This document shows positions 3,847 to 59,795 of a stretch of DNA of 64,000 bases, one piece after another. Origin of the DNA: Pirellulales bacterium (GTDB taxonomy: Bacteria; Planctomycetota; Planctomycetia; Pirellulales; Thermoguttaceae); NCBI GenBank assembly GCA_016935315.1, contig JAFGRD010000026.1, positions 1-64,000 of the forward strand. Direction: 5' to 3'. Position 1 is the stretch's first letter. Each line of letters opens with the position of its first letter. Below the pieces are notes generated by a model. It made no database searches. It had not been told where the DNA came from and saw only the letters and a program-made list of their open reading frames with translations. The position numbers were made by a program, and so were the translations under genes.

Positions 3847-4399
3847 AGGCGGGGCGCGGGTATTGGGAACGTCAGGTCGAGATGTCAGGAGTCTTCTGCT
3901 TCAGCCTTTCCTCTGCGCGGCCTGCACACGTGTTTATTGACGTTTGCACGGTCAATGCGCGGGAGCGATCAACGGGAGCCCGGCTTTTTCCGGCCTCCCG
4001 TTGGTCGGCCTTGATCATTCGCAATGCAAACATCAATAGGAGGAACGGGCGAGTGTCTCCACGCGGGTCCGGACAGTACCGCGCGTCCTTCTGCTGTTTC
4101 CGCGAACCCGCTCAACAAGTATGGCATGTTGTGGTGATGTCGAAGCGCCCCAAAGCCGAAGTCTTGCGACTTCAGCTACCATCTGGCTGAAACGCCGGCG
4201 ACAGCCAACTGCCGACTGTAGGACTGGGAACGCTTGGGTAGGCCGCAAGGATTCTACGGGCCCCTGAAACAGCTCCGACCGTATTCCGGCCAGTCGGCGA
4301 AAATCGCCCGCATCGCAGACCCCCGGAGCATGCCATCTTTACGATGTGCGGCCGCCCTCCGGCGACGCACTCGGCAGTCCAGCCCCGGGGAAATCGCAT
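3847..4399. other. Intergenic region with palindromic element copy A
   Basis: The stretch lies between divergent genes and should hold both promoters. It contains element copy A (3935-4038). The rest (4039-4399) holds no gene or obvious promoter that I can support. Confidence 0.5.
3935..4038 (+). repeat. 103-104 bp palindromic element, copy A
   Basis: A 104 bp member of a six-copy family. It starts TATTGACGTTTGCA and ends TGCAAACATCAATA, forming near-perfect terminal inverted repeats. Inside, GATCAACGGGAG pairs with CTCCCGTTGGTC around a CCGG..CCGG loop. Its ends are TA on both sides, matching a duplicated TA target. It is one base longer than the other copies because of an extra base in the loop. 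Same orientation as copies C, D and E. Confidence 0.9.
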
Positions 4400-9615: not shown

Positions 9616-11148
9616 ATGAACTGCTCATCGCAAACGATTCCCAGCCCCGGCCAAGTCGTCCGCCTGCTCGCGACCCACAAGAGGCACTGGTTGATTCCGG
9701 CCGTGGTGGTGGGAGTGTTGGCCCTGCTTTACGCCTTGTTTCGCCCGGCAACTTGGGAGGCCTCGCAGGCGTTGATCGTCCGCGACGAGGCGACCAACAA
9801 CGAAGTCAGGCCCGGCGAGTTCGGCCACGCCGACGAGATGAAGACGCTTCAGGAGACGATCCTCGAGCTGGCCAAGAGCGGGGGAGTTCTCAGCGCGGCC
9901 CTCGGAGAGATCGGTCCCCCGGCAGGCGAGCGGCCCGGTGATGCCACATGGCCCAGCCCGGCCGATGTGGCCAGGCTTCGCGACCGTGTGAAGCTGACGC
10001 CGCCCAAAGGCGCCGAGTTCGGCAAGACCGAGGTCTTCTACCTGAAGGTCCGCGATCACGACCGGGATCGGGCCGTCGCCCTGAATCGCGCGACCTGCGG
10101 CCACCTGCAGGCCAGGCTTCAAGAGCTCCGCGACGCCAAGGCCCAGAGCATGATCAGCGAGTTGGCCAAAACGGTCCATCTGGCCAAGAACGACCTGCAA
10201 GAATCGACTGCCCGTCTGGAGCAGCTCGAAAAGCAGGTGGGCAGCGATTTGGCAGAGCTGCGTGTGCTGAACGAGCCGGGGCTGGGCGACAGCGCGTTGC
10301 GTCGCACGATGACCGAGATCCGCAGCGAATTGCGGCAGATCGACGCCACCCGACGAGCCAACCAAGAGTTGCTCGCCCTGCTGGTGGCAGCTGGCGACGA
10401 TCCGGGCCGCTTGTTGGCTACGCCCAATCGACTCCTGGAATCGCAGCCGGCTTTGCGGCGGCTGAAGGACGGCCTGGTTGATGCCCAGTTGGCTACCGCC
10501 GCACTGATGGGGACCATGTCGGCCGAGCACCCCCTGGTGAAATCAGCCTTGCAGTCCGAAGAGGAGATCGGCCGGCACCTGCACGACGAGTTGTCCATCG
10601 CCATCCGCGGGCTGAACGTCGAGCTGCAGATGAACGACGACCGGGCCACCGTGCTGGAAGGCCAACTGGCCGAGGTCACCGCGCGGCTGGGCCGTCTGGC
10701 CGAGCTGCGGGCGAGCTACGCGAATCAACTGGCCGAGACGGCCAACCGCACCCAACGGATCAAACGGGCCGAGCAGAATTTGTCGGAGGCCCAGGCGACC
10801 CACGCCAGCGCCAAGGCAACGAACCTGATCAGCCGCATCGACGTTCCCGACACCGGCGTCGATCCGGTCGGCCCCAGCCGCAGTCTGATCGTGCTGCTGG
10901 GGATCGCCGGTGGGCTGGCCGTCGGTTTCGGCGTGGTGGTGCTGGTGACACCTCCGGTTTCGGTGGCCGGAGCCCATGCGTCGCCCGCCGAGCCAACGCG
11001 GCCCAGTCCGGTTGCGGCCGGGCCGTTCGACCTGCCGGCTCCCGTGGTCCAGCCCCGGCGAAGGCCCGTCGCGTGTGGTTTTCCCGCGGACCAAGGCCTG
11101 TCGATCAAGCAGGCCCTACAAAAAGTCGTCCTGCACAACACGGTCTGA
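9616..11148 (+). CDS. Polysaccharide chain-length determinant (Wzz/PCP-type membrane protein)
   Basis: 510 residues from the ATG at 9616. A first membrane helix (about residues 27-46, WLIPAVVVGVLALLYALF) is followed by a long alpha-helical, coiled-coil-rich periplasmic region (residues about 170-430). A second helix (LIVLLGIAGGLAVGFGVVVLV, about residues 440-460) is followed by a proline-rich cytoplasmic tail. The Wzz-like motif WEASQALIVRDEA follows the first helix. No Walker motif or tyrosine cluster is present, so this is a co-polymerase without a fused BY-kinase, and no separate kinase was found here. It should set polymer length together with the Wzy-like protein downstream. Its TGA stop is provided by the end of palindromic element copy B. 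Confidence 0.82.
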   Translation: MNCSSQTIPSPGQVVRLLATHKRHWLIPAVVVGVLALLYALFRPATWEASQALIVRDEATNNEVRPGEFGHADEMKTLQETILELAKSGGVLSAALGEIGPPAGERPGDATWPSPADVARLRDRVKLTPPKGAEFGKTEVFYLKVRDHDRDRAVALNRATCGHLQARLQELRDAKAQSMISELAKTVHLAKNDLQESTARLEQLEKQVGSDLAELRVLNEPGLGDSALRRTMTEIRSELRQIDATRRANQELLALLVAAGDDPGRLLATPNRLLESQPALRRLKDGLVDAQLATAALMGTMSAEHPLVKSALQSEEEIGRHLHDELSIAIRGLNVELQMNDDRATVLEGQLAEVTARLGRLAELRASYANQLAETANRTQRIKRAEQNLSEAQATHASAKATNLISRIDVPDTGVDPVGPSRSLIVLLGIAGGLAVGFGVVVLVTPPVSVAGAHASPAEPTRPSPVAAGPFDLPAPVVQPRRRPVACGFPADQGLSIKQALQKVVLHNTV

Positions 11149-11248
11149 TGATGTTCGCATTGTGAATGATCCAGGCCAACCAACGGAAGGCCGGACAAGT
11201 CGGGCTTCCGTTGGTCGCCCTCGCGCATTGAGTGTGCCAGCGTCAATC
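11146..11248 (-). repeat. 103-104 bp palindromic element, copy B (inverted)
   Basis: Inverted relative to copy A. Its first bases, TGATGATG, include the TGA stop of the chain-length gene (11146-11148). The internal stem carries a paired change: ACGGAAG opposite CTTCCGT, where other copies have ACGGGAG opposite CTCCCGT, so base pairing is kept. The terminal bases have drifted (TGATGA at one end, TCAATC at the other) and the flanking TA is lost. It separates the chain-length and polymerase genes. Confidence 0.9.
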
Positions 11249-28420: not shown

Positions 28421-28523
28421 TATGAACGCTTGCACAGTCAATGTGCGAGGGCGACCAACCGGAACCCGATTTCTCCGGCCTCCCGTTGGTCGGCCTGGAT
28501 CATCCACAATGCAAAAATCAATA
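28421..28523 (+). repeat. 103-104 bp palindromic element, copy C
   Basis: 103 bp, same orientation as copy A. Ends are TATGAACGCTTGCA and TGCAAAAATCAATA; outer TA is kept on both sides. The internal stem is the most damaged of the six: GACCAACCGGAAC faces CTCCCGTTGGTC with several mismatches, suggesting decay of this copy. Confidence 0.88.
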
Positions 28524-43506: not shown

Positions 43507-43562
43507 CGATGATTGGGCAATCGGTTCGATGGCATGGCCACGGGCCGTTGGGCTGAGAGTTT

Positions 43563-43665
43563 ATTGACGTTTGCACAGTCAATGCGCGAGGGCGACCAAC
43601 GGGAGCCCGATTTTTCCGGCCTCCCGTTGGTCGGCCTTGATCATTCGCAATGCAGACATCAACAG
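43563..43665 (+). repeat. 103-104 bp palindromic element, copy D (best-preserved stem)
   Basis: 103 bp. Starts TATTGACGTTTGCACAG and ends GCAGACATCAACA. The internal stem is perfect: CGACCAACGGGAG faces CTCCCGTTGGTCG with loop bases CCCGATTTTTCCGG. It ends 24 bases before the ATG of the hybrid kinase and so lies in that gene's 5' leader. Confidence 0.92.
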
Positions 43666-56886: not shown

Positions 56887-57292
56887 AGCGTTTCCTCCAG
56901 CCAGCTTGCCGTTAGAATCCAGCAAGGGCCCCCATTTTACTGCCGGCACGGCTCGGAAGGGAGTGAGCCAGAAAAGCACTCCCTCTTAGTCTAATCGCTC
57001 GTTGTGGGAGAATAAAGCGCCGGAGATGGCAATTTCTTGCCAAGGGCACCAAGCACCCCCCCACGATACATAGGCGTGCTGCCTCGCAAAGGCTGTTGAC
57101 CAGATGCAGCGGCGCCACTCACGCAGGGCCGCTGCGCGACCTTGCACTTTCATGTATGTCCAATTTGCCCTTTTGCGAGTCCTTATTGACGCTTGCACAC
57201 TCAATGCGCGAGGACGACCAACAGGAGCCCGACTTGTCCGGCCTCCCGTTGGTCGGCCTGGATCATTCACAATGCAGACATCAATAGAGGTG
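56887..57292. other. Intergenic region containing element copy E
   Basis: Between the leader of the giant-protein operon and the end of the inositol-phosphatase gene. It contains element copy E (57184-57286); 56887-57183 shows the GGAGG for the TTG start but no gene and no clear promoter. Confidence 0.5.
57184..57286 (+). repeat. 103-104 bp palindromic element, copy E
   Basis: 103 bp, same orientation as A, C and D. TATTGACGCTTGCA at one end, TGCAGACATCAATA at the other, with TA kept on both outer sides. One stem position is unpaired: ACAGGAG faces CTCCCGT. It ends six bases from the stop codon of the inositol-phosphatase-like gene, in its 3' untranslated region. Confidence 0.9.
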
Positions 57293-58087
57293 CTAGGCCA
57301 ACGCTCGGGCCACCAGTTCTTGAAGCTGCCGGTGCAGCGTGTCGTTGGCGGCGGCCAGGAAACGGGCGTCGTTGAGGATAAACGGTCCGCCGTCCGGCGA
57401 GGTGACCTTGCCGCCGGCCTCGCGAACCATCAGCACGCCGGCCGCCACGTCCCAGACCTTGGTCGAGAATGACCAGTACACGTCGAAACGCCCCGCAGCC
57501 AGGTAGCAGAGATTCAACGCCGACGAGCCCGTCCGGCGGATCGCCTGGCACGCTTTCAGGGCCTCGAGAAACACGATTGCGTCGGGCGAGTTCCGCGACG
57601 AGCCGGGCGGAAAACCTACAGCGGCCAAGGCCTCGGGCAGGTCCGACACGCCACTGGTGCAGATCGGGCGCCCATTGAGGCTGGCCCCTTCGCCGGCAAC
57701 GGCCGTGAAACACTCGTCGCGCGTCGGATCGTACACGGCGCCTACCAGGAGTTCGCCACGGCGTTCCAATGCCAACGACACGCTGAAGTGTGGCACCCGA
57801 TGCACGAAGTTCGTGGTGCCATCCAGCGGATCGACGACCCATCGGTATTCCGCTTGTTGCGCGGCCGCTTGCGCGTCGCTGTCCTCTTCGCCCAACAGAG
57901 CGTGGTCGGGAAAGGCGTCGAAGACGATCTCGGCGATCACCTCTTGCGAGGCGAAATCGGCCTGGGTAACGAGATCGGCGGGCCCTTTCTTCTGGACTTC
58001 GATTCGGCCGATCCAGTCGAGCACCGCAGCCCCCCCGGCTCTAACCGCCTCTTCGCAAATCGTTTTGTAGTCGTGTATTGCGTTCAT
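57293..58087 (-). CDS. Inositol-monophosphatase-family phosphatase (SuhB-like)
   Basis: 264 residues with the full Li+-sensitive phosphatase set: LLGEEDSDAQ (metal-binding Glu-Glu), WVVDPLDGTTNFVHRVPHFSVS (DPLDGT core) and KVWDVAAGVLMVREAGGKV (WDxAAG). These enzymes release phosphate from inositol phosphates, 3'-phosphoadenosine phosphates or fructose bisphosphate, using two or three Mg2+ ions. GAGGA lies six bases before the ATG. A textbook promoter precedes it (58120-58148), giving a short leader of about 26 bases. Substrate is not determinable from sequence. Confidence 0.9.
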   Translation of the reverse strand: MNAIHDYKTICEEAVRAGGAAVLDWIGRIEVQKKGPADLVTQADFASQEVIAEIVFDAFPDHALLGEEDSDAQAAAQQAEYRWVVDPLDGTTNFVHRVPHFSVSLALERRGELLVGAVYDPTRDECFTAVAGEGASLNGRPICTSGVSDLPEALAAVGFPPGSSRNSPDAIVFLEALKACQAIRRTGSSALNLCYLAAGRFDVYWSFSTKVWDVAAGVLMVREAGGKVTSPDGGPFILNDARFLAAANDTLHRQLQELVARALA

Positions 58088-58543: not shown

Positions 58544-59305
58544 ATGATCTCGTTGGCTTGGCAGTTGGACAAACACGTCGCTCGTTTGCAGTCCGATCGG
58601 TTTGGCGCCGCCGTTGATTTGACTCGACCGGCCGAAGGCATCGTTGACGTTGGCGTAGATGGTCGCCACCTGGAGGATGCTCGTCTGCTGGCCGCGGAAA
58701 TCCCTTCGCTGCGGGCCGGTGATGCGGACTCGTTGATCGAGCACTACGCCCGTGGCGCTGAGCTTGTGGCAGCCTATAGGCAATCGGCAGAACACCCTGT
58801 TCGCGTCGACAGTTTGTGGCGCGCCCTGCCCCACACGGCATCAGACCTCATCGCGGCGGTCGAGTTGGTGGTCTCGGTTCGAACCGAGCTGCTCAACTCC
58901 CGGCCCGAGATGCATGTGCAGAGTGGATTGGCCGCCAACGAGGTGTTGCGGCTGACGAACACCGACGCCGCCGGATACGTGCCGATCGTGCCCTCGACCA
59001 CGGAGACAATCCTCCAGCCGTCCGATGGCATCGGGTGCGTGCTGTTCCGGCCGACCGGCGCCGAAATCAGTTACGCGGAAATGATCCATCCGGACGATTT
59101 CCAGCACGACGAGGTGCTCTGCGGTGGCCGGAAAGGTCGTTGCGTGTTGCTGCGCCACCGCCTGTTTTCAGAACGGTTGGAAAAGGGCGTGATTCTACGC
59201 GCCCGCCTGCGAGCGGCGTTCGTGCCGCGCAATGACGACTTGCGTATCGCGGCCGCCTGCTACGGGAGCTTCGTCGCCACGGAGGCCCCGCTGGAGTCCT
59301 ATTGA
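58544..59305 (+). CDS. Conserved-looking protein of unknown function
   Basis: 253 residues from the ATG at 58544, with AGGA eleven bases upstream; a GTG at 58535 lies too close to that site. No signal peptide or membrane helix is visible. The protein is predicted mixed alpha/beta: a helical part around ARLLAAEIPSLRAGDADSLI and a beta-rich second half with YVPIVPSTTETILQPSDGIG, EISYAEMIHPDDFQHDEVLC and RLRAAFVPRNDDLRIAAACY. That half is loosely like sugar-binding beta-sandwich proteins, but this is a weak impression. I do not recognise a family. Its TGA stop (59303-59305) lies in the terminal repeat of element copy F. Confidence 0.6.
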   Translation: MISLAWQLDKHVARLQSDRFGAAVDLTRPAEGIVDVGVDGRHLEDARLLAAEIPSLRAGDADSLIEHYARGAELVAAYRQSAEHPVRVDSLWRALPHTASDLIAAVELVVSVRTELLNSRPEMHVQSGLAANEVLRLTNTDAAGYVPIVPSTTETILQPSDGIGCVLFRPTGAEISYAEMIHPDDFQHDEVLCGGRKGRCVLLRHRLFSERLEKGVILRARLRAAFVPRNDDLRIAAACYGSFVATEAPLESY

Positions 59306-59402
59306 TGTTTGCATTGTGAATGATCCTGGCCGACCAACGGGAGGCCGGAGAAATCGGGCTCCCGTTGGTCGCCCTCGCGCATTGACTGTGCAGGCGTCAA
59401 TA
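59300..59402 (-). repeat. 103-104 bp palindromic element, copy F (inverted)
   Basis: 103 bp, inverted like copy B. It begins TATTGATGTTTGCA, and the TGA of its TATTGA is the stop codon of the gene at 58544. The stem is perfect (GACCAACGGGAG facing CTCCCGTTGGTC). TA is kept on both outer sides. With copy E it encloses the phosphatase and unknown genes in opposite orientations. Confidence 0.92.
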
Positions 59403-59795
59403 AATGGGCTTGCACGATTCCGAGAACTACCGACTCCGCCGCCACCCTTCGGGAGGCGGCTCCAAGACGCCGCAGTTCTCCGACCACTTCAGAGAGGGTG
59501 GCGACGAAGTCCGAGACTGCCCACATCCTACCCGTTCATTCACCGCTTGTCGGCCGACCGCACACCCCCGCTGCCGTGGGAATCTGCGATATCCCGGACT
59601 GTTCCAAAAAAGTTGCACATCTGGGGGGGATTTGTCATAATGGGCCTGCAGGCTTTGCCGGCCCTTGCGGCGATCTGCATTGCGTATACTCAACCGGAAC
59701 AGGCCACTGCGGCAACAGCCTCGAGCGTCCGCTGCGTCGCCGTGGCGTGGAGTCTTGTGATCAGGCGGTGAAGCGGAGATTCAACGGAGGTCGTC
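59403..59795. other. Leader region of the giant CotH-domain protein gene
   Basis: No gene is supported before the GTG at 59796. A good sigma-70-type promoter lies at 59613-59641, and GGAGG directly precedes the start. The remaining bases show nothing I can name. Confidence 0.5.
59613..59641 (+). promoter_or_regulatory. Sigma-70-type promoter
   Basis: TTGCAC (59613-59618) and CATAAT (59636-59641) are separated by 17 bases. Transcription would start near 59648, giving a leader of about 148 bases to the GTG at 59796. Confidence 0.6.

Follow-up and report, generated by a model that had tools for sequence, protein, structure and literature searches.

Copies F and B and the stop codons at element ends

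The window, a 64,000-nucleotide stretch (contig C62:1-64000) of the genome of a Pirellulales bacterium (7.10 Mb in 172 contigs, ~65% GC), contains six copies, A to F, of a short non-coding repeat, and two of these copies, B and F, carry the stop codon of the gene that precedes them. Alignment of the six copies, each about 103 bp, defined the element as a 103-bp imperfect palindrome with the inverted ends TATTGA...TCAATA; its end sequence is written TATTGAYGYTTGCA. The features at the two gene ends are as follows.

58544-59305, plus strand: gene of unknown function, 253 residues, C terminus ...PLES-Tyr-stop; no NCBIfam or Pfam match
59300-59402, plus strand: element copy F, 103-bp imperfect palindrome with ends TATTGA...TCAATA
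59300-59301, plus strand: TA, probably the left copy of a duplicated target and bases 1-2 of a former TAA stop (from flanks and homologue C termini)
59303-59305, plus strand: TGA of element F (element bases 4-6, TAT-TGA), stop of the 253-residue gene
59401-59403, plus strand: TA-A, probably the right target copy and the final base of the former TAA stop (from flanks)
9616-11148, plus strand: chain-length-determinant-like gene, start codon uncertain; weak Wzz and GNVR matches below the Pfam cut-offs
11146-11248, plus strand: element copy B, left end TGA instead of TAT, right end TC instead of TA
11146-11148, plus strand: TGA (element bases 1-3), stop of the chain-length gene, one codon ahead of the position used in F
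11149-11151, plus strand: second in-frame TGA, the canonical stop of the element and homologous to that of F, giving copy B a tandem stop

A sequence-only reading of this DNA had proposed that the TGA at 59303-59305, within the element end TATTGA, terminates the 253-residue gene and that the TGA at 11146-11148 terminates the chain-length gene, and both assignments were confirmed. Its further statement that B and F are alike holds for their common orientation and fails for the position within the element, which is bases 4-6 in F and bases 1-3 in B; the two do share a reading frame.

The element is not confined to the window. Scanning the whole genome with a 29-base left-half pattern, allowing up to three mismatches, found 119 + 165 = 284 places (the reversed control found 0), and a covariance model built from the six window copies gave at least 150 matches. 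The contigs C14, C22, C50, C58, and C101 of the source genome (G000; other G numbers are relatives) end inside an element copy; the repeat thus breaks the assembly, and the copy number is probably an undercount. At L051:2992-3192 (L numbers denote fetched stretches or loci), two copies lie in direct tandem, fused with the loss of a few end bases. For the counts that follow, 120 stretches, mostly around element copies, were combined with the window to give a sample of 932,324 bases, in which nhmmer detected 183 non-redundant matches; 168 were full length, and the 15 partial ones were excluded from every count. Genes were called with our own codon-usage model, using a training set of 298 long open reading frames (ORFs), and offsets were counted from the first T of TATTGA at the element end facing the gene.

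The 168 copies have 336 ends; the nearest gene reads toward the element at 132 of them and away from it at 193, and 11 have none. At the 132 gene-facing ends, the stop lies ahead of the element in 89 cases, at +3 in 39, at offset 0 in two (copy B and L120), and further in for two genes, one in each other frame. Of the 43 stops that coincide with or lie within an element end, 41 are therefore in a single frame (39 as TAT-TGA and 2 one codon earlier), against an expectation for random frames of about 1/3 of the 43 in each. The supply of stops by element ends is far beyond chance. The gene-caller threshold has little influence on this: at settings of 8, 12, 20, 35, and 60, the ends with a stop at offset 0 or +3 numbered 42, 42, 41, 38, and 29, respectively, and each setting also gave a single stop elsewhere inside the element and a single gene running through it. 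The end that faces the gene at the 41 supplied stops is the left one in 18 cases and the right one in 23, and both orientations are thus used.

Twenty-four of the 41 affected genes were annotated. In several (FabF, MreB, AraD, CoaD, and the endonuclease III Nth) the match to a housekeeping family covers almost the full profile; other named ones include RecO, FlhF, LarC, phosphoribosyl-AMP cyclohydrolase, and a flagellar-type export protein. Among these 24, the genes at F, L051, and L064 gave no match. Replacement of the stop is seemingly harmless to the genes.

B and F share one strand of the window, and the other four copies occupy the opposite one. Copy E had been described as ending six bases from a third stop codon, and it does so, the gap being 57287-57292.

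3935-4038, minus strand: element copy A, not at a called stop
28421-28523, minus strand: element copy C, not at a called stop
43562-43664, minus strand: element copy D, not at a called stop
57184-57286, minus strand: element copy E, six bases past the stop of the minus-strand gene 57293-58024

Target site, homologue C termini, and retention of the stop

The bases that flank the element point to the site it entered. The base ahead of TATTGA is a pyrimidine in 95-100% of every class of end, and the base past the far TA is a purine at 280/289 control ends. At the 39 sites with a stop at +3, a pyrimidine is found ahead in 38 and a purine past the far TA in 37, the other two having C past the TA; both TA copies are intact at 22 of those 37 sites, one at 11, and neither at 4. 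When the flanks are joined around one TA they read NNY-TAA or NNY-TAG, which indicates that the original stop was struck in its TA. Copies L084, L081, and L029 have both ends at +3, lying in the stops of convergent genes that share one TA; two such shared-TA convergent stops were seen unoccupied among 119 plus-strand TAA/TAG stops.

In the sample, occupied YTAR sites (pyrimidine, TA, purine) numbered 35/95 at stops, 118/512 in intergenic DNA, and 2/377 in coding DNA, a count that leaves out 12 copies with other flanks and one at an edge. These fractions are inflated because the stretches were chosen around copies; the ratio between classes should be less affected. Stratification by site type gave 35 observed stop sites against 23.1 expected (standard deviation about 4.4), and the pooled odds ratio of stops to intergenic YTAR was 1.95 (p=0.007), i.e., stops were struck about twice as often. 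By site type, the odds ratios were 2.1 for CTAG (p=0.09), 2.3 for CTAA/TTAG (p=0.011), and 1.4 for TTAA (p=0.70). The excess may reflect a target preference, or it may reflect selection against insertions beside promoters. The earlier suggestion that insertion into 3' ends is favoured thus survives in a sharper form, as a modest excess at the TA of the stop codon, and not for 3' ends at large.

The change at the C terminus was examined in homologues. The gene at F has homologues at 16 loci in same-family relatives, representing 15 distinct genes (L147 and L149 are one gene), and comparison of the unaligned tails showed that 13/15 end exactly one residue before F. FabF at L081 ends FAG-Y; loci were obtained for 29 homologues, and in 26 of these the last residue is the one immediately ahead of the tyrosine. 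Both proteins are one residue longer than most of their homologues, and insertion therefore added one residue and truncated nothing; of the truncated or altered tail envisaged by the sequence-only reading, the altered one is what is found, as a one-residue tyrosine extension in F and FabF. The lengths of most F and FabF homologues further imply that the empty site must have held a TAR stop.

Once supplied, the stop has been retained. Element bases 1-3 or 4-6 form a stop at 41/41 gene ends vs. 245/293 other ends (Fisher p=0.0016); the supplied stop is of course present by definition at the 41 ends, and a copy that had lost its stop would show up as a gene continuing in that frame, but no such gene was seen, both run-on genes lying in other frames. 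The TAT ahead of the stop is intact at 27/41 stop-supplying ends vs. 207/293 other ends, and the last residue of the 39 proteins ending at +3 is Tyr in 27, His in 5, Asp in 4, Cys in 2, and Ser in 1, the codons of the last four residues each being one base change from TAT. Ends that supply a stop thus stay intact more frequently than the rest do, so element ends do serve as stops.

Mobile family and competing explanations

The reading that we regard as very probably correct is that a TA-target miniature inverted-repeat transposable element (MITE) of IS630/Tc1-mariner type inserts into YTAR, stop codons included, and swaps in a tyrosine codon and its own stop. The element would enter YTAR sites and duplicate the TA. 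Such sites are scarce because the genome is about 65% GC; those within genes would be almost closed to insertion, and TAA and TAG stops after a pyrimidine would be tolerated ones. Because the element ends begin TTGA, NNY-TAR would become NNY-TAT-TGA, one tyrosine followed by a new stop, and because the ends are inverted repeats, either orientation would work, as would the termination of both convergent genes that share a TA. Selection would then retain the TGA, and the tyrosine codon would drift, sometimes back to a stop, as in copy B. If this is true, a C-terminal tyrosine was left, and TAA or TAG was changed to TGA, across dozens of genes. It is possible, but in our estimation rather unlikely, that the TTGA ends were themselves shaped by selection for stop-codon safety; inverted ends that restore a stop whichever way the element lies would then make stop codons, sites closed to it otherwise, a reusable landing pad and a real niche.

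As for the family, the element is short, non-coding, and high-copy, with terminal inverted repeats whose arms pair end to end, and nearly all copies have TA at both ends with Y ahead and R past, the pattern that TA insertion would leave. The TA target, YTAR preference, and inverted ends would fit IS630/Tc1-mariner, an assignment that is provisional because the IS630-type element at L129 has different ends. That insertion sequence (L129:957-2060) was considered as a partner; its ends TTGAC..GCAGAAGTAGTGA share just TTGAC and a few further bases with our element. Its first ORF has helix-turn-helix domains, which are not in the reading frame of the DDE part; an A-rich run lies close by, and the arrangement looks as though a frameshift joins the two. 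It provides the one substantial match to Pfam DDE_3 in the source genome, where three others are short; relatives gave 13 matches in 5/8 genomes, and the element's ends were found at none.

DNA matches to the element itself were present in 8/39 relatives. Twenty stretches fetched from relatives yielded 17 copies, two of them half copies, which retain the ends and a large part of the right arm; their 16 gene-facing ends include one stop at +3 (L251, G014) and no other stop within the element, numbers too few to generalise. The right arm around CGGGCTTCCGTTGG and GCCCTCG is common across genera, other parts having diverged (L240-L252, L255, and L257-L259; G014, G005, G015, and G025), and this sharing exceeds what is expected of a MITE that shares just its ends with its parent. 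A 23-base piece of the right arm, in the relatives' form, occurs in four stretches of the Planctomycetaceae metagenome-assembled genome AS06rmzACSIP_219 and in one of Botrimarina colliarenosi Pla108; Botrimarina belongs to the order Pirellulales.

Several observations weigh against the insertion of a TA-target MITE into stops. Most of the sampled copies (130/168) are not at stops, and element ends facing gene starts (193) outnumber those facing gene ends (132); the excess at stops reaches p<0.05 solely for CTAA/TTAG among the site types. The homologue comparison is not uniform, as 2/15 F homologues depart from the one-residue difference (L140 ends level with F in a tyrosine of its own, and L147 is longer), as do 3/29 FabF homologues (L205 and L207 shorter, L182 longer), and the tails of endonuclease III (L090) differ among relatives such that a length comparison is not countable. 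B ends at the same aligned residue as 4/29 homologues (L211, L212, L213, and L227), the other 25/29 ending elsewhere, shorter or longer; because L211, L212, and L213 are the three most similar to B, B probably ends where its ancestor did, and reversion of the tyrosine codon to a stop is most simply the history of this copy. No transposase with matching ends was found in a search for Pfam DDE_3, other transposase families not being searched, and the bases flanking the L129 element are TA at one end but GA at the other. Nor was a DNA-level empty site found, and the TA duplication consequently rests on flanks and homologue lengths; an exact scan with the 29-base left arm of genome_contigs and viral_contigs, where near-identical genomes may be excluded, gave no match. 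Finally, the gene calls rest on our own codon model, and the sample is biased to well-preserved copies because the best-scoring lists were its starting point.

Three alternatives were weighed. Were insertion random near 3' ends, truncating genes and leaving as survivors those with an element stop in frame, the near absence of coding YTAR insertions (2/377) would be accounted for, since it reflects strong selection against damage; the second frame of the left end would add few residues before a stop, yet no stop lies there, and F and FabF are longer than most homologues by one residue, not shorter. Truncation at 3' ends is largely refuted by these lengths, and we consider it highly improbable. 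Hardly better placed is the idea that the copies beside gene ends took on a role as 3' hairpins, either terminators or mRNA protectors, the stop being a by-product. Copy F does fold end to end as DNA (-32.8 kcal/mol, z -7.2), its transcript is a very stable hairpin (-62.9 kcal/mol, z -8.0), and stop-site copies retain their TGA, but the 38 stop-site copies show no difference in folding energy from 84 copies away from gene ends (means of -53.9 vs. -54.6 kcal/mol, p=0.43) or from all 130 others (p=0.41), no run of T lies 3' of copy F, and a hairpin function does not predict a single frame. Rfam models gave 0 matches in the window at the gathering score. The sequence-only reading had offered recruitment of element ends both as stops and as 3' structures; the retention of stops upholds the former, and the equal folding and missing T run speak against the latter.

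A different kind of mobility is improbable as well, if somewhat less so: a REP-type tyrosine transposase, for example, could have moved the element (REP, repetitive extragenic palindrome), with the terminal TAs being part of it and not a duplicated target. The missing partner leaves room for this, since tyrosine transposases were not searched for, and REP ends are known to supply stop codons (PMC3733652). Without TA duplication, though, the position at which most homologues terminate would lack a stop in the empty sites of F and FabF, and the element has long inverted ends and spans 103 bp, not 20-40 bp. Entry of a TA-target MITE into YTAR sites, with transposition probably by an IS630-type enzyme, thus remains the reading we prefer.

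Known systems and significance

The results suggest a simple, testable rule for the spread of mobile DNA in compact genomes, namely that an element targeting TA can occupy stops at almost no cost if its terminal bases are suitable. The rule predicts lineage-specific C-terminal tyrosines and TAA/TAG-to-TGA changes, which are not to be taken for protein adaptation. The affected genes also offer a natural test of how termination responds when the stop codon sits at the base of a strong hairpin.

A group II intron reportedly lies at the termination codon of groEL in Azotobacter vinelandii; this is likewise a mobile element in or near the stop of an essential gene, but the intron is RNA-based and occupies a single site. 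Related material is given in PMC4465626. IS630 is said to prefer TA within CTAG, which is a subset of YTAR. ISY100 inserts almost exclusively at TA and duplicates it (PMC2170065). Our element resembles both in its TA insertion and differs from these autonomous elements in being non-coding and in using CTAA/TTAG and TTAA sites as well.

Compared by description only, RUP of Streptococcus pneumoniae is similar in length (107 bp), copy number (108 copies), and use of TA-containing sites, and an IS630-family transposase has been proposed for it; it differs in having a proposed partner, IS630-Spn1, and insertion into stop codons is not mentioned for it in the available portion of that account (PMC2229807). 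GTAG-tagged REPs (PMC3733652) are 20-40 bp long with an unpaired tag, are often found with IS200/IS605-type transposases, occur in Planctomycetes too, and often give flanking ORFs the stop TAG from their ends. The supply of stops to adjoining genes is the same in our element, which is otherwise unlike a REP: it is 103 bp long and paired end to end, sits at TA sites, carries TAT-TGA at both ends, and lacks the unpaired GTAG or CGTC tag that a REP has at one end. The thaumarchaeal integrated element NitEve-E2 replaced the TAG stop of its target gene with an element-derived TAA (PMC6563490), and here too a stop is replaced by the element's own, although NitEve-E2 is a single integrated element and not a high-copy MITE. 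The literature search turned up no account of a MITE that inserts into stop codons, which is weak evidence of absence as subscription journals were thinly covered. As far as that search goes, what is new relative to these systems is a TA-target MITE that has the stop codon as a target, regenerates a stop from both of its ends, and leaves a mark of one tyrosine.
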